A stretch of DNA of 64,000 nt from a virus. The translations under genes and the position numbers were made by a program. Of this stretch, positions 1 through 8,113 are shown one piece after another. Position 1 is the first letter of the stretch; every line of letters begins with the position of its first letter. Location: positions 33,938 through 97,937 of the IMG/VR virus record IMGVR_UViG_3300013094_000025; one strand, 5' to 3'. The notes under the pieces are model-generated. The model saw nothing but the letters and a program-made list of their open reading frames with translations, did no database searches and was not told the origin of the DNA.

Positions 1-195
1 TCTTTAGCAATTATTAGAGAATATTTAGATTATTCTAAAACTTATAAAGATAGATATACTTTAAATGTTGAAAAGCAAAATGACTATTGTAAAGGTCAAA
101 AGAAAAACGAAAAAACCTTTAAAGCTTTAGCAATTGATGTAGGGGAAGATAATGCTAAAAAATTTATTAACAATTTTATGTTTCCTGAGCTTTAA
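1..195 (+). CDS. C-terminal fragment of an unknown protein
   Basis: Frame 1 is open from the first base to a TAA at 193-195 and gives the last 64 residues of a gene that begins before the window. The fragment is charged and Lys/Asn-rich, ends in NNFMFPEL, and shows no motif I recognise. It runs in the same direction as the dpdA operon, but a reverse-strand gene lies between them, so it probably ends the preceding forward unit. Its last 20 bases overlap the end of that reverse gene. Confidence 0.6.
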   Translation, partial: SLAIIREYLDYSKTYKDRYTLNVEKQNDYCKGQKKNEKTFKALAIDVGEDNAKKFINNFMFPEL

Positions 196-397
196 TCTCT
201 TTAACAAACAATTGAATAATTTCAGCCCCTTTAAATTTTAAAAGACGTTCATTAGTTATATTAAAATGTTCAAGAGCTTTTTGTATACAGTCACTTTTAG
301 TAGCTGAGGCTGTTTTCCATAGATATACCGGACCCACTTTTATTACATGGACTATTCTTTTATGAATAAAATACTTGACATTTGTAGAATTTGACAT
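176..397 (-). CDS. small hypothetical protein (73 aa)
   Basis: A reverse-strand ORF of 73 residues starting MSNSTNVKYF. The frame extends upstream to another ATG at 430, but I prefer the start at 397 because a CATAAATA late-promoter-like box (reverse strand, 411-418) lies 13 nt before it, the arrangement seen before other genes here; the longer start would place that box inside the gene. The protein is basic, with a KVGPVYLWKTASATKSDC segment, and has no recognised domain. It diverges from dpdA and overlaps the preceding forward gene by 20 bases at its 3' end. Function unknown. Confidence 0.5.
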   Translation of the reverse strand: MSNSTNVKYFIHKRIVHVIKVGPVYLWKTASATKSDCIQKALEHFNITNERLLKFKGAEIIQLFVKEIKAQET

Positions 398-403
398 TAT
401 TAT
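375..403 (+). promoter_or_regulatory. sigma70-like promoter of the dpdA operon
   Basis: TTGACA at 375-380 and TATTAT at 398-403 are separated by exactly 17 nt. Transcription would start near 410, a few bases before the dpdA ATG at 416. The -10 hexamer lies directly beside the start codon (395-397) of the divergent small gene, so the two units share this control region. It looks like an early or middle promoter read by host-type RNA polymerase. Confidence 0.55.
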
Positions 404-410
404 TGTACAA

Positions 411-418
411 TATTTATG
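411..418 (-). promoter_or_regulatory. late-promoter-like box for the reverse small gene
   Basis: On the reverse strand the sequence reads CATAAATA, one base from the T4 late consensus TATAAATA, 13 nt before the ATG at 397. It overlaps the dpdA start codon on the other strand. Confidence 0.4.
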
Positions 419-1267
419 CTTATTAGCCACGAAACACCTATTAGTCTTCTAGATACCTCTAGAGGCTACAATGATTATGATTATTGTCTAGTACATTTAC
501 TACCTGAACAGTCGGAATATCTTAAATTTTATAAGGATTCCGTCGAAATGGGTAGACACGTATTACTTGATAATAGTATTTTTGAACTTGGAGAAGCTTA
601 TGATTCAAAAGAATTTGCTTATTGGATTAATGAATTGAAACCTACTGAGTTTATTATACCTGACGTTCTTGAAAGCACAGAAGGAACTATTGAAAGCTTT
701 AAGAAGTTTACTAGCGAATATAGAAACCTTCCGAGTAGAAGTATCGGTGTAGTTCAAGGTAAGACATATAAAGAAATTGTTGAATGTTATAATTTCTTGT
801 GCAAGTATGTAACTAAGATTGCTATTTCTTTTGATTATTCGTTTTATCTTAATGAATGGCCTACTTTAGAATCGTTTGAAAAAGAATTAGGAGTATTACC
901 TGAATGGATAAAGGGACTCGAATTTAATAAGTGGGTAAGATATTCCTTAGGTAGAGTAGCTTTACTTCATAGACTTAGTGCTAAGGATAACTATTTTGAT
1001 TATAGAAAGGGTCATCATCTACTAGGATGTGCTACCCCTTGGGAGTTTAAACTCTATAACAAGACGCCGTATAAGATGTGTATTGAATCAATAGATACTT
1101 CTAATCCTATTGTAGCAGCTATTCTTCATAAGAAGTATAATCCTGTTTATGGGCTACATGAAAAGTGGTCAGTAAAACTAGTTGACTATATTGGCGCTAA
1201 TATAACTCGAGAACAGCTCGAATTAGCTTTTTATAATACGTCCCTATTTAGAAAATTCTGTTCATGA
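416..1267 (+). CDS. dpdA: DpdA, DNA guanine transglycosylase (7-deazaguanine insertion)
   Basis: A 283-residue member of the tRNA-guanine transglycosylase (TGT) superfamily, of the phage DpdA type that swaps guanine in DNA for a 7-deazaguanine base. TGT landmarks appear in order: LDNSIFELGE (51-60, the first catalytic Asp region), IPDVLE (81-86), GVVQGKTYKE (111-120, matching the TGT VQGG motif), HHLLGCATPWEF (200-211, matching the TGT LMGVGTP motif), and IDTSNP around D227, the likely nucleophile. The family replaces bases after replication and so protects phage DNA from restriction. The gene has its own sigma70-like promoter and shares an ATGA overlap with the formyltransferase downstream. 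The compact length fits phage DpdA rather than bacterial Tgt, and queF in the same operon supports the assignment. Which DpdA subfamily it belongs to needs a phylogeny. Confidence 0.88.
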   Translation: MLISHETPISLLDTSRGYNDYDYCLVHLLPEQSEYLKFYKDSVEMGRHVLLDNSIFELGEAYDSKEFAYWINELKPTEFIIPDVLESTEGTIESFKKFTSEYRNLPSRSIGVVQGKTYKEIVECYNFLCKYVTKIAISFDYSFYLNEWPTLESFEKELGVLPEWIKGLEFNKWVRYSLGRVALLHRLSAKDNYFDYRKGHHLLGCATPWEFKLYNKTPYKMCIESIDTSNPIVAAILHKKYNPVYGLHEKWSVKLVDYIGANITREQLELAFYNTSLFRKFCS

Positions 1268-1785
1268 GAAAATGGGTAACGTTTTTTAGTCAGACAGGTT
1301 CTGAAATTTATAAGCTTTCAAATAGACTCGGAAGAAATCCGGATATTATTGTAACAAATAGTACAAAGATTAGGCCTGAAGTTGTTGATAAGTTTGGAGA
1401 TAGTATTGTTTACGTAGGTCCAAAGCCTACAGTAGAAGATTATCTTAGGTTTATACCCGTTAATAGTTTAGTTACTCTTCACGGATGGCTTAGAATAGTG
1501 CCTGAAGAAGTATGTGATAGGTACGAGATTTATAATCTTCATCCAGCTAACCTGTTTCATAACCCTGAATTGAAAGGTAAAGATCCTCAAAAGATGGCCT
1601 ATAAACAGAAACTAATATTTTCCGGTAATACTATTCATCGCTGTACAGCCGAATTAGATTCCGGAGAGATACTTGAACATAGTTATACTTCTATTGAAGG
1701 CTTAACGTTAGATGAAATTATTGCAACATTACATGAAGATGCTACAAATTTGTGGTATAGATTTTTAAAAAAGCATTTACAATAA
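1264..1785 (+). CDS. formyltransferase-fold enzyme, DpdN-like (predicted dPreQ1 formylation)
   Basis: A 173-residue protein with the signature of folate-dependent formyltransferases (PurN/Fmt fold). TLHGWLRIVP (71-80) matches the family's core strand. NLHPA (91-95) carries the catalytic Asn91 and His93, and LDSGEIL (131-137) carries the third catalytic residue, Asp132, after a TIHRC strand. It begins inside the dpdA stop codon (ATGA overlap), so the two are translationally coupled. A formyltransferase named DpdN has been predicted in other phages to formylate the aminomethyl group of dPreQ1 in DNA. I infer the same role from the fold, the coupling to dpdA and the nearby queF. A purine or methionyl-tRNA formyltransferase is less likely: it is shorter than either and stands alone. 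Confidence 0.75.
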   Translation: MRKWVTFFSQTGSEIYKLSNRLGRNPDIIVTNSTKIRPEVVDKFGDSIVYVGPKPTVEDYLRFIPVNSLVTLHGWLRIVPEEVCDRYEIYNLHPANLFHNPELKGKDPQKMAYKQKLIFSGNTIHRCTAELDSGEILEHSYTSIEGLTLDEIIATLHEDATNLWYRFLKKHLQ

Positions 1786-1789
1786 ACGA

Positions 1790-2347
1790 ATGAAAATTGC
1801 TATTTCAGGTGCTCATAGTCAAGGTAAAACTACTCTTGTAAAGTGGTTGCAGGATATAAATGTTTTAACTGATTATAAGTTTAGAACTTCTTTAACGAGA
1901 GGAATGCAGAAAGCGGGGTATAATATTAATGAAGATGGGGATGAGGTAACTCAATTAGCTATTATGGCTAAGCATTTTCAGCGACTTAGTGAAGTAGGGA
2001 ATATAATTTATGATCGTTGTGCTTTAGATGGTTATGCCTATTCTATGTCTTTAGTAAAAGATCTTAAAGTTTTAGATATTATTAGAGATATGTTTTTATT
2101 AATGGTGGATAGATATGATATTATTTTTTATGTTGAGCCGGAGTTAGATCTTATAGAAGATGGTCAAAGGACAGTAAATAAAGATTTTTTTGATAGTGTA
2201 GTGCAATCTTTTGATTGTATTATTAAATCATATGCAATACCTGTTGTAAGGCTTAGCGGTTCTGTAGAAGAACGTGCTAGACAATTCTTTGTAGCTTTAC
2301 AGGATAAAGAGGTAGAAAAACACAACAACGAATTTTACGAATTATGA
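1790..2347 (+). CDS. P-loop nucleoside/nucleotide kinase-like protein
   Basis: A 185-residue P-loop kinase fold protein. The Walker A motif is GAHSQGKTT (7-15). The YDRCALDGYAYS segment from residue 74 is the DR-x-x-x-D motif common in deoxynucleoside/thymidylate kinases and in the NadR-like AAA_28 family, and a FYVEPE strand follows. The substrate cannot be read from sequence. The gene lies between the formyltransferase (4-nt gap) and queF (ATGA overlap), so it belongs to the deazaguanine operon. It could phosphorylate a deazaguanine pathway intermediate, salvage nucleotides, or act on modified DNA as the known phage hydroxymethyluracil DNA kinases do; these are conjectures. Confidence 0.75.
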   Translation: MKIAISGAHSQGKTTLVKWLQDINVLTDYKFRTSLTRGMQKAGYNINEDGDEVTQLAIMAKHFQRLSEVGNIIYDRCALDGYAYSMSLVKDLKVLDIIRDMFLLMVDRYDIIFYVEPELDLIEDGQRTVNKDFFDSVVQSFDCIIKSYAIPVVRLSGSVEERARQFFVALQDKEVEKHNNEFYEL

Positions 2348-3255
2348 GTACAACTAACATGAATGACATTGCATCGAAGTCTTTAGGATCTTCGGCTTCG
2401 TATGCAGTATATACCGATACGTTTGATCCTACGCTTCTTAACCCGATGCCTCGATCCCTAGCTCGAGATGATTGGGGTATTAAAGCTGGAAGCTTTGTAG
2501 GATTTGATACATGGCATTGTCATGAAGCTACATTCCTTCTTAATAGTGGAGTGCCCGTAGCAGGTACACTAAAGTATGTTTATTCTTGTGACTCTGAGTT
2601 TATGGTAGAGTCAAAGTCTGCTAAGCTTTATTGTAACTCGTTTGATATGTGCAAGATGGGTGAGAATTATTCTCAGGCAATTGCTAATTATGAGAATCAA
2701 ATTAAAACAGATCTCGAAAATATTCTTAAGACACCAGTATCAGTTAAGTTTTTCCGTTCAGGATCTGATAATAATGCTGTAGACTCTGTTCCTGATTATG
2801 TTGATCTTACAGATAAGATTCATTTTAGCACTGAGATTACTGATTATGCTTCTAAGGAGGAGCATTTAAAGTTTTATTCACTTGAAGATGGTAACGAAAT
2901 TGTAGAATGTAAATATTTTACTAATGCGTTGAGGTCTCGTTGCCGTCATACAAAGCAGAAAGATACAGGTACGGCTTATATTCATATTATTACAAAGGGA
3001 TGTGAAGTAAATCCGGTATCACTCTTTAAGCAAATTGTATCGTTACGAGAAGTTAACGAGTTCCATGAATTCTGTGCTGAAAAGCTTTATACAAGTATTA
3101 AGAGTCATCCAGCAGTAATTGATTGTGCTGTAACTCTTCTTTATGCTCGTCGAGGATCGCTTGATATTAACCCGACAAGGGCTAGTCGAGCTGATCTTCT
3201 TCCATCTGTTCTTATTAATTCAAATGTCTATACAAAAAAGGCAATGGGTCAATAA
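2344..3255 (+). CDS. queF: QueF, NADPH-dependent preQ0 reductase (two-domain type)
   Basis: A 303-residue enzyme that reduces the nitrile of 7-cyano-7-deazaguanine (preQ0) to the aminomethyl group of preQ1. It has the long two-domain architecture of the Escherichia coli enzyme: an N-terminal half with ESKSAKLYCNSF (89-100), and a C-terminal half with the catalytic Cys200 in RSRCRHT, Asp207 in KQKDTG, NEFHEFC (238-244) and the terminal RRGSLDINPTR signature (269-279). It starts by an ATGA overlap with the kinase gene and ends the operon. Its presence implies that the base inserted by DpdA is preQ1 rather than preQ0. Codons are somewhat more GC-ending than in its neighbours, suggesting good expression. 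Confidence 0.93.
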   Translation: MSTTNMNDIASKSLGSSASYAVYTDTFDPTLLNPMPRSLARDDWGIKAGSFVGFDTWHCHEATFLLNSGVPVAGTLKYVYSCDSEFMVESKSAKLYCNSFDMCKMGENYSQAIANYENQIKTDLENILKTPVSVKFFRSGSDNNAVDSVPDYVDLTDKIHFSTEITDYASKEEHLKFYSLEDGNEIVECKYFTNALRSRCRHTKQKDTGTAYIHIITKGCEVNPVSLFKQIVSLREVNEFHEFCAEKLYTSIKSHPAVIDCAVTLLYARRGSLDINPTRASRADLLPSVLINSNVYTKKAMGQ

Positions 3256-3302: not shown

Positions 3303-3686
3303 ATGAGCGAAACAACAAACAAAATCACAATCTTCTTTGACTCTGTAGGACGTACAATCCTCGGAGAACGAGTTGACGAAGCAACAACAGATACAGTTCT
3401 TTCTATTAAGAACCCAGCAGTTGTCCACATTATGCCTAACCAGCAGACAGGACAGCTTACTCTTCAGATCCTTCCTCTCTTCTTCAGAGAGTTCTTGGCT
3501 GATAAGACCGAAGCTACAACTTGGAAGTATAACCGTTCACTCATTACTGAGTGCAATGATATTGCTTTTGACTTTAAGCTTCAGGCTCAGTACCAGCAGA
3601 TCTTCAATCCTAGTCCAATTATCACTCCAGGAGGTGTCACACCAGCCGATAAGACTGACGTAGTCCGTCTTTTTGACGAAGAATAA
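3303..3686 (+). CDS. conserved-looking hypothetical protein upstream of uvsX
   Basis: A 127-residue protein, start MSETTNKITIFFD, with a beta-rich core containing NPAVVHIMPNQQTGQLTLQ, a FFREFL segment and an acidic tail (VVRLFDEE). No catalytic motif is visible. Codons are C-ending and clean, as in well-expressed genes of this phage. A TATAAT-like hexamer lies at 3286-3291, 11 nt before the ATG, in an A/C-rich leader. It stands immediately before uvsX and is probably part of the replication or recombination block. Function unknown. Confidence 0.7.
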   Translation: MSETTNKITIFFDSVGRTILGERVDEATTDTVLSIKNPAVVHIMPNQQTGQLTLQILPLFFREFLADKTEATTWKYNRSLITECNDIAFDFKLQAQYQQIFNPSPIITPGGVTPADKTDVVRLFDEE

Positions 3687-3687
3687 T

Positions 3688-3715
3688 TGGATTTAATAGA
3701 AGCAGCATCTAATAT
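3688..3715 (+). promoter_or_regulatory. possible sigma70-like promoter of uvsX
   Basis: TTGGAT at 3688-3693 and TAATAT at 3710-3715 with a 16-nt spacer, ending 6 nt before the uvsX ATG. Both hexamers are imperfect, so the assignment is tentative. Confidence 0.3.
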
Positions 3716-3721
3716 TGTCGT

Positions 3722-4819
3722 ATGGCTAAAAACGAACTCTCTCATTTAAAAGATATTTTTAAATCTGTCGATGACTTAAACCCAGACGCTGCAGTATTAG
3801 ATGCTGCTACTCTATCAACAGCAGATGATTGGATTGATACAGGATCATATGCTTTAAACGCAATTATTTCAGGGTCTCTTTATAAGGGAATTCCTGGAGG
3901 TCGTATTACAGGTTTTGCCGGTCCTTCTATGGCTGGTAAGACTCTTATTATGAGTAAGATTATGGCTAATGCTCAAAAGAAAGGCTATATACCTGTTATT
4001 TGGGATTCTGAGGTAGCCGTAGATAAGAAGAGTGCTGAAGGCGCTGGTATGGATTCAGCTCGTGTTAAGTATTATCCGGTAGAGACAATTGAAGATTGTC
4101 GTAATCAAATGTCTGCTTTCCTTGATAATGTTATCAAAGCAGATAATCCTGATCTTAAGTTTATTGTTGCTATCGATTCCCTCGGTAATCTAGCAAGTGC
4201 TAAAGAGATTAAGGATGCTACAGCAGGTAAAGACTCTGCTGATGTCGGTCAACGCGCTAAGGCAATTAAGTCTATGATGCGCACACTTACCTATAAGGCT
4301 GCTAAGGCTAAGGTACCAATTTTGTTTAGTAACCATATTTATGAAGGAATGGAAATGTTTCCTACTCTTGTTAAAACTCAGAGTGGTGGTAAGGGGCCGA
4401 TTTATCTTGCTTCGGTTCTTGTACAACTTAGCACGAAGAACGAGAAAAGCAGTGACAATCCTAATGAACAATCTGTGGCTATTGCTCATAATATTTCAGG
4501 TGTTACGTTAGGAGCAATGACAGTAAAGAATCGATTTGTACCTTCTTATCTCAAGACTGAACTTTATTTAAACTTTAAGTCAGGGCTTGATAAGCATGCA
4601 GGTCTTTTTGAAATTGCTGAAGCCTTTAAGGTTATTGAAAAGCCAGGACGTACAGTAATGTATAAAGGTGAGAGTCTTGGTTACAGAAAAGATCTTGAAA
4701 AAGATCCTAAATTCTGGGAAAAGATTATGCCAGAGCTAGAGAAGGTTCTTCAAGAACAACTTTGCTATGGTACAGGGGATTCAGTTGATATTGAAGAAGA
4801 AGTCGATAATATCGAATAA
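3722..4819 (+). CDS. uvsX: UvsX, RecA-like recombinase
   Basis: A 365-residue RecA/UvsX family ATPase that would form filaments on single-stranded DNA and catalyse strand exchange for recombination-dependent replication and repair. The Walker A motif is GPSMAGKT (67-74). The VIWDSEVAVD segment carries the acidic residue expected after strand 2, and FIVAIDSLGNL is the Walker B strand. The acidic C-terminus (VDIEEEVDNIE) resembles the regulatory tails of RecA-type proteins. Its stop overlaps the helicase start (TAATG), so the two are probably co-translated. Length is close to T4 UvsX. Confidence 0.93.
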   Translation: MAKNELSHLKDIFKSVDDLNPDAAVLDAATLSTADDWIDTGSYALNAIISGSLYKGIPGGRITGFAGPSMAGKTLIMSKIMANAQKKGYIPVIWDSEVAVDKKSAEGAGMDSARVKYYPVETIEDCRNQMSAFLDNVIKADNPDLKFIVAIDSLGNLASAKEIKDATAGKDSADVGQRAKAIKSMMRTLTYKAAKAKVPILFSNHIYEGMEMFPTLVKTQSGGKGPIYLASVLVQLSTKNEKSSDNPNEQSVAIAHNISGVTLGAMTVKNRFVPSYLKTELYLNFKSGLDKHAGLFEIAEAFKVIEKPGRTVMYKGESLGYRKDLEKDPKFWEKIMPELEKVLQEQLCYGTGDSVDIEEEVDNIE

Positions 4820-6168
4820 TGTCTGCTCCCACTCCTGGTAAGCTAGATCTCGATTATTACGAGAACATTATTCTTTTTAATTCTCTTCTTAGTCAAGAAT
4901 ATCTAGCTTCAATTATTGATCATGCTGATCCTACTTACTTTAATGATAAAAGTATTCAAACAGTTTTTAAGTGCATTATATCGTTCTTTACTGAACGTGG
5001 AACAGTGCCTACAGCTACTGAAATTAAATCCAGACTCTCAACAGACGAAGAGAGACGATCATTTAATGAAGTAGTAACTCGCTTTAAAGAACTAGATACA
5101 AAGTTTAATAAAGAGGAGCTTCTTAATAATACAGAGAGGTTTCTAAAAGAAAGATGTTTGTATAAAACTATTGTTGATACTGCAGAAAAGTACTCTGAAG
5201 GTAAAGCAGATCCTGCTGAGATATTAAAGGAGTTTGAAAAAGCTTATAATATTAATCTTAGTGAGGATATGGGTCATTGGTACTTTGAAGAAGTAGATGA
5301 GCATATTAAAGAACTTACTAAAGTATATAATGCTATTCCTACAGGATGGAAATTCTTAGATGAGAAAATTGAAGGTGGTTTATTTCCAAAGTCTCTTTAT
5401 TGCCTAGTAGGTCAAGTTAATATTGGTAAGAGTATTTTCCTTGGTAATATTGCTGCTAATATGGTAATGAAGAATAGAAATACTCTTCTTATATCTTTGG
5501 AAATGTCTGAGTTTATGTACGCTAAACGTATTAGTGCTCAGCTTACCCAGATTCCTCATCATAGTCTTAAGTTGTATACCGATGAACTTAAAGATCAAGT
5601 TAAGCATATTGAACGACAGTTAGAGAGTAAGCTTATTATTAAAGAATACGCTCCAAAGACAGTAACAGTAAGAAATATCGATGCTTATATAACAAAACTA
5701 GCTCACAAAGGGTTTAAACCTGAAGTAGTTGTTATTGATTATATTAATCTTCTAAAGCCAACATCTAAGAATCTTAATTCGTACGAGTCTGTAAAAGAAA
5801 TAGCAGAACAACTAAGAGCAATGTCATTTAAGTATAATATACCTATTGTTACAGCTTCTCAGCTTAATCGTGGAGCGTTTAATACAGCCAGTCCAGGTAT
5901 GGAAGGTATTTCAGAATCTATTGGATTAGCAGCAACTTGTGACGTAATTTGTTCTTTGTGGCAAGAAGATGAAGATAAAGAATTAGGTATTATTAATCTC
6001 GGTATGCAAAAGAATAGATTTGGAGCTAACTTTGGTAGCTGCGCTTTTAAGGTTAAGTACGAAACTTTAACTCTTAACGAGGTTAGTGCTGATCACTTTA
6101 CTACTGAAACTCCTCAACAGGCTGTTAGTGATGCTCAAAGTGCCTTACAAAGTTTATCTGAGCCTTGA
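4819..6168 (+). CDS. 41: gp41-type replicative DNA helicase
   Basis: A 449-residue DnaB/gp41 superfamily 4 helicase. An N-terminal helical domain (about 1-150) precedes a RecA-like motor. Walker A is GQVNIGKS (198-205), TLLISLEMSE is the H1a-like segment, VVVIDYINLL is Walker B, and the sensor region TASQLNRG follows. It would unwind the lagging-strand template as a hexameric ring and interact with primase, which is not in the window. It is co-translated with uvsX. No intein or frameshift is visible. Confidence 0.92.
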   Translation: MSAPTPGKLDLDYYENIILFNSLLSQEYLASIIDHADPTYFNDKSIQTVFKCIISFFTERGTVPTATEIKSRLSTDEERRSFNEVVTRFKELDTKFNKEELLNNTERFLKERCLYKTIVDTAEKYSEGKADPAEILKEFEKAYNINLSEDMGHWYFEEVDEHIKELTKVYNAIPTGWKFLDEKIEGGLFPKSLYCLVGQVNIGKSIFLGNIAANMVMKNRNTLLISLEMSEFMYAKRISAQLTQIPHHSLKLYTDELKDQVKHIERQLESKLIIKEYAPKTVTVRNIDAYITKLAHKGFKPEVVVIDYINLLKPTSKNLNSYESVKEIAEQLRAMSFKYNIPIVTASQLNRGAFNTASPGMEGISESIGLAATCDVICSLWQEDEDKELGIINLGMQKNRFGANFGSCAFKVKYETLTLNEVSADHFTTETPQQAVSDAQSALQSLSEP

Positions 6169-6180
6169 TAAATGTAACAA

Positions 6181-6203
6181 TATGTAGTAAATAAAGCTAC
6201 ATA
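6181..6203 (+). promoter_or_regulatory. hairpin with late-like box before the 6205 gene
   Basis: TATGTAG (6181-6187) and CTACATA (6197-6203) form a perfect 7-bp inverted repeat ending one base before the ATG at 6205. The loop region includes AGTAAATA (6186-6193), which resembles the phage late box. It may be a promoter, a translational control hairpin, or chance. Confidence 0.3.
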
Positions 6204-6204
6204 T

Positions 6205-6519
6205 ATGTTTAATGAAAAGGTATTAGACGATTTCTTATCTAAGAATGACCCTTTAAAGCAAATTTGTACAAAAGAGTTTATACTCGGTGTATTTAAATTT
6301 GGTTCCTTTTTATCTATTTTACATAATAAAAGACTAAATCCTTCAGCAGTATTTGTTCTTATATTAGAAAGTAAAGAGATAAGAGATTTATTCGTAGATG
6401 TCACTCACTCAGAAAACGCTAAAGAAGCCTTACTTGGCCTCTTGCAACTTTACCCGCCGCTACTAAAATCAAAGAATACTAAACGACTATTCAAGAAATC
6501 AATATCCGGCAAAAAGTGA
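6205..6519 (+). CDS. hypothetical protein (104 aa) between genes 41 and 59-like
   Basis: A predicted helical 104-residue protein starting MFNEKVLDDF with a very basic C-terminus (KSKNTKRLFKKSISGKK). Its stop codon overlaps the GTG start of the next gene (GTGA), implying translational coupling. In T4 the late co-activator gene 33 sits just before 59 and 32, so this is the position where gp33 would be sought. The sequence does not resemble T4 gp33, so I leave it unnamed. Confidence 0.6.
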   Translation: MFNEKVLDDFLSKNDPLKQICTKEFILGVFKFGSFLSILHNKRLNPSAVFVLILESKEIRDLFVDVTHSENAKEALLGLLQLYPPLLKSKNTKRLFKKSISGKK

Positions 6520-7184
6520 CTGAACTAGAAAAAAGAATTTACAATAAACATTTAGCGGTGTCTCGATCTTTACGTAATAAGCCCTTTAAACTTAAAGGTG
6601 ATTTTACTAATTTTAAAGATAGTACAAAATACCCTTCAATAAAAAGACTTTGTATATTCTTTAACAAGTATCCTGATGTTGATATGGATACATATTTTAT
6701 GGCTCCATATAAGCTATATTCTGATACTGATTATTTTGATTTAGCTTATTTTGCCTCACCTAGAGCTATCAAAGCATATACAACTTATAAAAATCAGCTT
6801 TTACAAATGTCTCCAGACAAGCAACAAAATGAAGTTAAAGAATCATTATTGTTTATATCAAGATTTTGTTTAATGAACAAAATTCAACTTCATGAATATC
6901 CTACTTTTAGATTTAAAGGTATGGCTCCAGAATGGGTATATCATTTAAAAAGTAATAAAATAAATCCGTATTCTTTGATGGAATTTCGAGGCATTTTTAA
7001 TTATATAAATGAGATGCCCTTTGATGAAAGAGAGTTATTACTTGGTAACTTTGGTAGTAACTATGTAGACTATAAATCCCGTTACAATTCATCAACAACA
7101 TTAAAACCCTTTCTTTCTGTAGCCGCAGAAAAATTAAAACTTTTTATAGATAAGAGCTTGAACAGTTCAAAATCTTATGTATAA
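6516..7184 (+). CDS. possible gp59-type helicase loader
   Basis: A 222-residue predicted all-helical basic protein with a GTG start overlapping the previous stop. Length (T4 gp59 is 217), helical composition and position directly before gene 32 match the T4 helicase assembly factor gp59. The FKGMAPEWVYHLKSNKINPY segment is reminiscent of the gp59 C-terminal domain. No diagnostic catalytic motif exists for this family, so the call rests on synteny, size and a weak pattern. If right, it would load the gp41-type helicase onto gp32-coated DNA at recombination forks. Confidence 0.45.
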   Translation: MTELEKRIYNKHLAVSRSLRNKPFKLKGDFTNFKDSTKYPSIKRLCIFFNKYPDVDMDTYFMAPYKLYSDTDYFDLAYFASPRAIKAYTTYKNQLLQMSPDKQQNEVKESLLFISRFCLMNKIQLHEYPTFRFKGMAPEWVYHLKSNKINPYSLMEFRGIFNYINEMPFDERELLLGNFGSNYVDYKSRYNSSTTLKPFLSVAAEKLKLFIDKSLNSSKSYV

Positions 7185-7185
7185 T
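7158..7185 (+). promoter_or_regulatory. sigma70-like promoter of gene 32
   Basis: TTGAAC at 7158-7163 and a perfect TATAAT at 7180-7185 with a 16-nt spacer, located over the end of the preceding gene. It would produce an mRNA with a leader of roughly 30 nt that contains no G (7186-7222). Confidence 0.5.
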
Positions 7186-7222
7186 ACACACAACACAAAC
7201 AACCCAACAACACAATACTATT
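7186..7222 (+). promoter_or_regulatory. G-free A/C-rich leader of gene 32
   Basis: The 37 nt between the TATAAT box and the ATG contain no G and are made almost only of A and C, so the leader cannot fold and has no Shine-Dalgarno site. T4 gp32 represses its own synthesis by binding an unstructured leader; an unstructured leader here fits such autoregulation, but that is inference. Confidence 0.35.
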
Positions 7223-8113
7223 ATGACATTAACTAAAAACCTATTCGCTGAAATTACAGCATCCCTATCTAATAAGAACGAAAATATCTATAAGGATATT
7301 CTGAAGTTTGAGGCTAACAAGACTTATCTCGTTCGTCTTGTACCTAATATTAACGAGCCAAAGAAGTCTATTTACAGCTATAAGCACCACAGCTGGAAGA
7401 GTCACTCTAACGGTCAGTTTATTACCTCACTCTGTCCTAGCACTTATGGGGAGAGCTGCCCGATTGATTCCTACGTTATGAAGACGTACAATACAGGTAC
7501 TGATGAAGAGAAGAAGAAGCTTGGAGAAATCTCTCGTAAGGAGAGTTGGATGGTTAACGCTTACGTTATTTCCGATCCTACTAACCCTGAGAATGAAGGT
7601 AAGGTTAAGGTCATTCGTTACGGTAAGGAGCTTGCTAAGATTATTGACAGTGCAATTACTGGCGATGATGCAGCTGAGTTCGGAGCAGCTAAGGTATTTG
7701 ACGTTGCTAATGGTAGCACTCTTCGTATTAAGTGCGAACCTCGCACAGGTAATACTGGTAATCGTATGTCAGTAACTTATTCATCTTCTAAGTTCTTGTC
7801 TCCTTCTAAGCTCGATATCCCTGAAGAGAAGGTTGTAAGTGTACATAAGGATATTCATGATCTTGCGAAGTTTAACAAGACCAAGACTACAACTGAGCTT
7901 CAGCAGTCCCTTGATCAGCACTTCCATTGCATTGAAGATGTAAATACAACAGAAGAGGTTGATGAAGATACTCTTCCAACACCAGTAGCTAAGATCCCTA
8001 CTAAGGATGCAGCTCTTGAGTCAATCTTTGAAGGTGTTACTGAGGCTCCTAAGCCTACACCTGCTGTAGATGATACAGATGCAAAACTTAAAGAACTACT
8101 TGCTGGACTCTAA
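7223..8113 (+). CDS. 32: gp32-type single-stranded DNA binding protein
   Basis: A 296-residue protein matching T4 gp32 in size and layout: a short basic N-terminal region for cooperative binding, an OB-fold core, and an acidic C-terminal tail (DDTDAKLKELLAGL) that recruits replication partners. The core has a HHSW segment followed by LCPSTYGESCPID, the expected Zn-binding His/Cys region, although the Cys spacing is reduced compared with T4. It coats single-stranded DNA during replication and recombination. Codons are biased like those of the capsid gene, consistent with high expression from its own promoter. Confidence 0.88.
   Translation: MTLTKNLFAEITASLSNKNENIYKDILKFEANKTYLVRLVPNINEPKKSIYSYKHHSWKSHSNGQFITSLCPSTYGESCPIDSYVMKTYNTGTDEEKKKLGEISRKESWMVNAYVISDPTNPENEGKVKVIRYGKELAKIIDSAITGDDAAEFGAAKVFDVANGSTLRIKCEPRTGNTGNRMSVTYSSSKFLSPSKLDIPEEKVVSVHKDIHDLAKFNKTKTTTELQQSLDQHFHCIEDVNTTEEVDEDTLPTPVAKIPTKDAALESIFEGVTEAPKPTPAVDDTDAKLKELLAGL

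Follow-up and report, generated by a model that had tools for sequence, protein, structure and literature searches.

How some phages replace essentially all of their guanine with 7-deazaguanines is unsettled. In a Campylobacter Firehammervirus, Crippen et al. 2019 are said to have found 100% of dG replaced by dADG; exchange on finished DNA would have to reach every G, and other complete substitutions (hydroxymethylcytosine, hmC, and Z) use nucleotide pools. In Flavobacterium phage immuto (vB_FspM_immuto, Immutovirus, NC_055915), dpdA, a formyltransferase gene, a gene annotated as 'thymidylate kinase' and queF follow one another, with FolE, QueD and QueE encoded upstream. The identical gene order is found in the 64,000-nucleotide stretch of viral DNA analysed here (the window; positions 33938-97937 of IMG/VR record IMGVR_UViG_3300013094_000025, record length 97,937 bp), where four consecutive genes lie within positions 416-3255 of the window, behind a promoter match:

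416..1267, + strand: compact DNA-guanine transglycosylase (DpdA3-like), 283 aa, assigned by PHROG, structure model and alignment
1264..1785, + strand: formyltransferase (Formyl_trans_N), 173 aa, with N91/H93/D132
1790..2347, + strand: AAA_28 P-loop nucleotide kinase, 185 aa, with Walker A GAHSQGKT at residues 7-14
2344..3255, + strand: QueF-type nitrile reductase (preQ0 to preQ1), 303 aa, with C200/D207 and the ESKSxK NADPH motif
375..403, + strand: sigma70-like promoter match TTGACA-N17-TATTAT, 11/12, weak

Judged from their sequences, these four genes very probably swap guanine in the phage DNA for a modified 7-deazaguanine, the product likely being preQ1 and probably N-formylated. The reading preferred here, to which a probability of about 0.72 is given, is that the operon would make and install a preQ1-type 7-deazaguanine in the phage DNA with a dedicated dGMP-type kinase as partner. 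Based on the immuto annotation and on recurrence in IMG/VR loci, the operon is assigned as a new member to the DpdA/QueF/formyltransferase system already annotated in immuto. The first-pass annotation had recognised a 7-deazaguanine operon, a reading that is kept, but had missed the existing immuto annotation and had treated the kinase, the best-conserved partner of this DpdA type, as a bystander.

Kinase-type partners of compact DpdAs

IMG/VR holds at least 585 DpdA and at least 558 formyltransferase relatives. At 90% identity, the level taken here as non-redundant, there are 79 loci with a window-type DpdA, 76 of them long enough to evaluate. A kinase-type partner was present at 75/76 of these, within 3.5 kb at 71 and farther away in the locus at 4, and belonged to AAA_28 (66 within 3.5 kb and the 4 farther), AAA_18 (2), the BSTP type (2) or DUF3310 (1); the only evaluable locus without one (1/76) was a contig of a Clostridia metagenome-assembled genome (L170). 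Since genomes of 100-230 kb hold one or two AAA_28 kinases each, chance proximity is roughly estimated at one in ten. In a second group of compact DpdAs, 49/49 loci were partnered, 20 by DNMK, the family of T4 gp1, a characterised deoxynucleoside monophosphate (dNMP) kinase, and 29 by DUF3310, which directly follows DpdA and is once fused to it. The two families were mutually exclusive at one slot across these loci, never both present and never both missing; nearly all overlapped or abutted DpdA, and the tree of the group indicates that partner type was swapped at least 2-3 times. Among non-redundant loci of the other DpdA types, a kinase-type partner was found at 0/4 for DpdA1 (phage 9g type) and 0/1 for DpdA2 (KVP40 type).

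The partner families at compact DpdA comprise AAA_28, AAA_18, a BSTP-type P-loop family, DNMK and DUF3310. The pairing recurs in cultured phages that are unrelated to one another and differ in their gene orders. An AAA_28 kinase follows DpdA in CP220 and CC_R7, an AAA_18 P-loop protein precedes it in Cellulophaga phiST (there beside MazG and PolIII) and Chryseobacterium MA9V-3, and another P-loop protein precedes it in Bacillus BSTP/BSP7 and Weizmannia Youna2, with a DNA polymerase after it; the P-loop protein of BSTP10 is annotated as 'putative thymidylate kinase'. A DNMK protein follows DpdA in Aeromonas Ahp1, Vibrio D479 and, with a score under the Pfam cut-off, Vibrio Bakedbeans. Ahp1 also holds an ordinary gp1 kinase elsewhere, so its DpdA-linked DNMK is a second and probably dedicated copy. 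In Rhizobium phage RHph_I1_18, DpdA is fused to DUF3310. The swap between DUF3310 and DNMK and the fusion are documented at L186:5001-6269, L266:5828-6157 and L172:667-1257. In phiST and immuto, DpdA has a MazG or PRA-PH gene nearby; MazG, a candidate dGTP-depleting enzyme, was not found on the window's contig. The gene before DpdA in CP220 (L031:8543-9574) encodes a fusion of an HD domain with an AAA_33 kinase, a candidate nucleotide-pool enzyme.

DUF3310 was the sole Pfam domain found in T7 gp1.7, which phosphorylates dTMP and dGMP (PMC7693777). Because DUF3310 swaps with DNMK and occurs fused to DpdA, nucleotide-kinase activity is predicted for it. The kinase of the operon matches AAA_28 at 7.8e-13, above the Pfam cut-off, and its structure model resembles those of thymidylate kinases and of deoxyadenosine kinase, with a best E of 4e-7, assigning it a P-loop nucleotide-kinase fold with Walker A. 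Given this dNMP-kinase-like model and a slot two of whose families are known through characterised dNMP kinases (T4 gp1 and T7 gp1.7), compact DpdAs are most economically read as needing a dGMP-type kinase. The kinase family itself is not specific to the pathway: over the stretch seen, Streptomyces phages that encode a similar kinase lack deazaguanine genes. No description of a kinase as the near-universal partner of compact DpdA, with unrelated replacements, was found in the literature covered, outside which lay Cui 2023, Crippen 2019 and a 2024 MMBR review.

The other genes of the operon are less constant. Formyltransferase, kinase and QueF accompany DpdA, in the order seen in the window, in 44/60 evaluable non-redundant IMG/VR loci; 7 others are without the formyltransferase, 3 have the kinase only and 1 has formyltransferase and QueF without the P-loop kinase, the operon genes lying farther away in the remainder. 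As some loci drop the formyltransferase or QueF yet keep the kinase, the former two appear optional and the kinase retained. The sole locus of the 60 without any kinase homologue (L026) has a DUF3310 protein in that place. The formyltransferase sits between DpdA and the kinase/QueF genes in the collected loci. Insertions of ~300-800 bp separate DpdA from the formyltransferase in L010, L017, L115 and L116, and the kinase from QueF in L011, L042, L112 and L118, and an intact formyltransferase-kinase-QueF block lies 6 kb downstream of DpdA in L088, L092 and L094.

Operon layout and active sites

All four open reading frames (ORFs) were found where the first-pass annotation had placed them, with the tight junctions that it described (two 4-nt ATGA overlaps and one 4-nt gap). 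As to its single sigma70-like promoter, the 11/12 match at 375-403 is the best of 19 such sites in 5 kb, but shuffled sequences give 20.3 expected, a number at chance level that makes the promoter weak evidence. The catalytic motifs that it had reported for the transglycosylase, the formyltransferase and QueF all proved intact on inspection and alignment.

Neither a Pfam scan nor profile searching against PDB sequences detected DpdA. PHROG 19058, into which the annotated immuto DpdA also falls, matches it at 4e-47, and its AlphaFold model (pLDDT 91) has the TIM-barrel fold of tRNA-guanine transglycosylase (TGT), the top PDB matches being TGT structures and bacterial DpdA 7ui4. The motifs comprise D52 (LDNS), D83 (IPD), Q114-G115 (VQGK), H201-G204 (HLLG) and D227 (DTSNP). 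All 12 aligned sequences keep D52, D83 and D227, which correspond to D89, D143 and D264 in E. coli TGT, so that the TGT active-site Asp residues, on which the earlier reading had been made to depend, are all in place. In the phylogeny, whose deep branches are long and unsure, this DpdA groups with those of CP220 and immuto, apart from the DpdA1 clade, and by sequence it is placed nearer the CP220 type than DpdA1 or DpdA2. The CP220 enzyme is reportedly classed as DpdA3 by Cui et al. 2023. Isoelectric point did not help to tell a DNA from a nucleotide substrate and was discarded: the compact DpdAs are no more acidic than E. coli TGT and DpdA1.

The formyltransferase matches Formyl_trans_N (PF00551) at 1.4e-8, above the Pfam cut-off; its catalytic N91/H93 (NLHPA) and D132 (LDSG) are invariant in 8 homologues, and among annotated phages its match is limited to immuto. 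It is a probable N-formyltransferase of preQ1 or dPreQ1. Both QueF domains score above their Pfam cut-offs (QueF_N PF14819, 1.9e-22; QueF PF14489, 7.6e-8), and E89SKSAKLY, C200, D207 and EFHE at 239-242 are intact, the NADPH motif and the Cys/Asp pair having been aligned to Vibrio cholerae QueF. Against TIGR03138, QueF scores 170.7 bits (cut-off 293.45); phage QueFs are divergent, and the protein is therefore filed as QueF-type, not as a QueF equivalog. From the active sites, QueD and QueE on the contig and the same operon in many phages, we still infer a preQ1-derived and probably formylated base, as the first-pass annotation did.

Proposed pathway and rival readings

In the proposed pathway, preQ0 would be made by QueD and QueE, encoded on the same contig, with FolE and QueC coming from the host or from phage genes outside the sequenced fragment. 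QueF would reduce preQ0 to preQ1, whose aminomethyl group would probably be N-formylated by the formyltransferase, and the compact DpdA would swap guanine for the deazaguanine via a covalent Asp-deoxyribosyl intermediate. The kinase would be a deoxynucleotide (dGMP-type) kinase handling the 7-deaza-dGMP that the pathway produces or receives: either DpdA acts on nucleotides and the kinase raises its product towards the deoxynucleoside triphosphate (dNTP), or the kinase meets a need for nucleotides that is particular to these phages. Restriction resistance has been established for related modifications (PMC6884629).

The chemistry of the base could be read in two other ways. The formyltransferase might be an auxiliary PurN-like or other enzyme that merely lies in the operon, leaving plain preQ1 in the DNA; its highest-ranking database matches are named PurN and, in PHROG, cyanophage PurN, and the immuto homologue is annotated as phosphoribosylglycinamide formyltransferase. 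This is unlikely, since its score of 33.9 bits against the PurN NCBIfam equivalog falls far under the cut-off of 150.1, and since its gene, where present, lies amid DpdA, kinase and QueF, while operons without it keep these three, as an optional tailoring step predicts. Less probable still is that the QueF homologue acts as a QueF-like amidinotransferase and produces archaeosine (G+), so that the genome would carry dG+. Sequence hardly separates QueF from QueF-L in phages (PMC6884629), but dPreQ1 is present in phages Dp-1 and HVTV-1, whose proteins are similar (PMC6884629); the two-domain architecture, the ESKSxK NADPH-binding motif and the Cys/Asp pair align with Vibrio cholerae QueF, and a formyltransferase requires a free amine. 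The scores of QueF, the formyltransferase, QueD and QueE, all under NCBIfam equivalog cut-offs, weigh against the preferred reading, and for this reason the exact reactions are inferred.

The kinase bears on where guanine is exchanged. Exchange at the nucleotide level rather than on the DNA polymer is held tentatively, at somewhat short of even odds. The fuller form of that idea is a more guarded proposal: compact DpdAs would act before replication, replacing the guanine of dGMP (or of a related nucleotide) with a 7-deazaguanine, the kinase, recruited from five or more unrelated families or fused as DUF3310, would lead to a modified dNTP that replaces dGTP and leaves the phage DNA without guanine, and DUF3310 would be a kinase domain. 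Exchange at this level would account for the complete guanine replacement reported in Firehammerviruses (Crippen et al. 2019, cited in PMC8713573). Alternatively, DpdA may insert preQ1 or formyl-preQ1 into duplex DNA after replication, the kinase only boosting dNTPs or salvaging dGMP from degraded host DNA, which is also a real possibility at a little under an even chance. Insertion into the polymer is the established DpdA route, as in DpdA1 and bacterial DpdA (PMC6884629; reviewed in PMC12707154), and a genome survey classes deazaguanine as transglycosylation into DNA, with kinases unmentioned (PMC7824862). The fold of the operon kinase is a generic dNMP/deoxynucleoside kinase fold, DNA polymerase genes lie near DpdA in several lineages, and general dNTP supply could be the role of a P-loop kinase encoded beside genes for replication. 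In infected Campylobacter, Crippen et al. 2019 reportedly did not detect dADG phosphates, as fits exchange on the polymer, and Cui et al. 2023 are said to have argued for post-replicative insertion into DNA. These points weigh against the nucleotide route, and the dedicated kinase is further called into question by the small DpdA1/DpdA2 control sample (n=5), by Brevundimonas phage StAshley, an exception among cultured phages whose distant DpdA-like gene has no kinase beside it, and by the short DUF3310 proteins, which are only putative kinases; FolE and QueC were not found on the 97.9-kb contig, which is a fragment. What exchange on the polymer leaves unexplained is a kinase-type partner at 124/125 compact versus 0/5 DpdA1/DpdA2 evaluable non-redundant loci, five unrelated families in one slot, the DUF3310-DpdA fusion and the second DNMK at DpdA of Ahp1.

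The preferred reading, a dedicated dGMP-type kinase beside a preQ1 pathway, would give a role to DUF3310, a domain that Pfam lists without a function, and could explain how compact-DpdA phages rid their DNA of guanine; the partners may provide enzymes for the production of deazaguanine dNTPs. The presence of a kinase-type partner at compact DpdAs and its lack at DpdA1/DpdA2 loci make the alternatives directly testable.

Genomic setting and known systems

The record encodes a Gp23 capsid protein, a T4-type terminase, gp32, a UvsX/RecA protein and a family B polymerase, from which the phage is T4-like, as the first-pass annotation had it. A near-DNA search of phage records gave 0 matches. The features surrounding the operon include the following, those marked G000 lying in the 34 kb that precede the window:

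G000 5057-5509, minus strand: QueD
G000 4297-5103, minus strand: QueE
G000 3666-4370, minus strand: second AAA_28 kinase, directly after QueE
176..430 of the window, - strand: 84-aa ORF, divergent from dpdA, overlapping the dpdA start and the promoter match

QueD and QueE thus lie ~28 kb ahead of where the window begins, on the opposite strand and with a kinase of their own. The QueE-kinase pair is conserved with ~5-bp gaps in three larger relatives and suggests two kinase steps; FolE and QueC are present on most larger related records. The 84-aa ORF was found again in 8 loci and probably stands outside the operon. Directly upstream of the operon lie genes for heme oxygenase and a ferredoxin-dependent bilin reductase (G000:C1 32943-34132), the second bilin-pathway gene ending at window 1-195, so that a bilin pathway occurs in a T4-like phage. 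At the QueD/QueE locus (L028), a minus-strand gene (5949-7499) encodes a protein whose C-terminal part carries a cytidylyltransferase-like domain; its N-terminal part resembles a DNA polymerase beta palm weakly, with a score under the cut-off.

The closest annotated DpdAs are those of immuto (42% identity) and the Campylobacter Firehammerviruses (42-43%). Firehammervirus CP220 shares a compact DpdA with an AAA_28 kinase directly after it, whereas no formyltransferase or QueF lies beside its DpdA and its modification is reportedly dADG (Crippen et al. 2019), not of the preQ1 type. The T4 hydroxymethyl-dCMP route, with the gp1 kinase, and the Z-genome offer an analogy only, in that a modified dNMP is phosphorylated and then polymerised; here the step would be a TGT-fold base exchange, not ring modification, and its nucleotide level is putative. 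The DNMK-family kinases at DpdA in Ahp1 and Vibrio D479 are a point of likeness. DpdN, reportedly predicted by Cui et al. 2023 as a dPreQ1 formyltransferase, resembles the formyltransferase here in being encoded beside DpdA and QueF. Immuto differs in that genes for FolE, QueD and QueE adjoin the operon on its upstream side and a PRA-PH pyrophosphohydrolase is encoded ahead of DpdA, where the window's QueD and QueE are ~28 kb away; both phages encode QueD and QueE, and the likeness extends beyond DpdA to the formyltransferase (49% identity), the kinase (34%) and QueF (38%).

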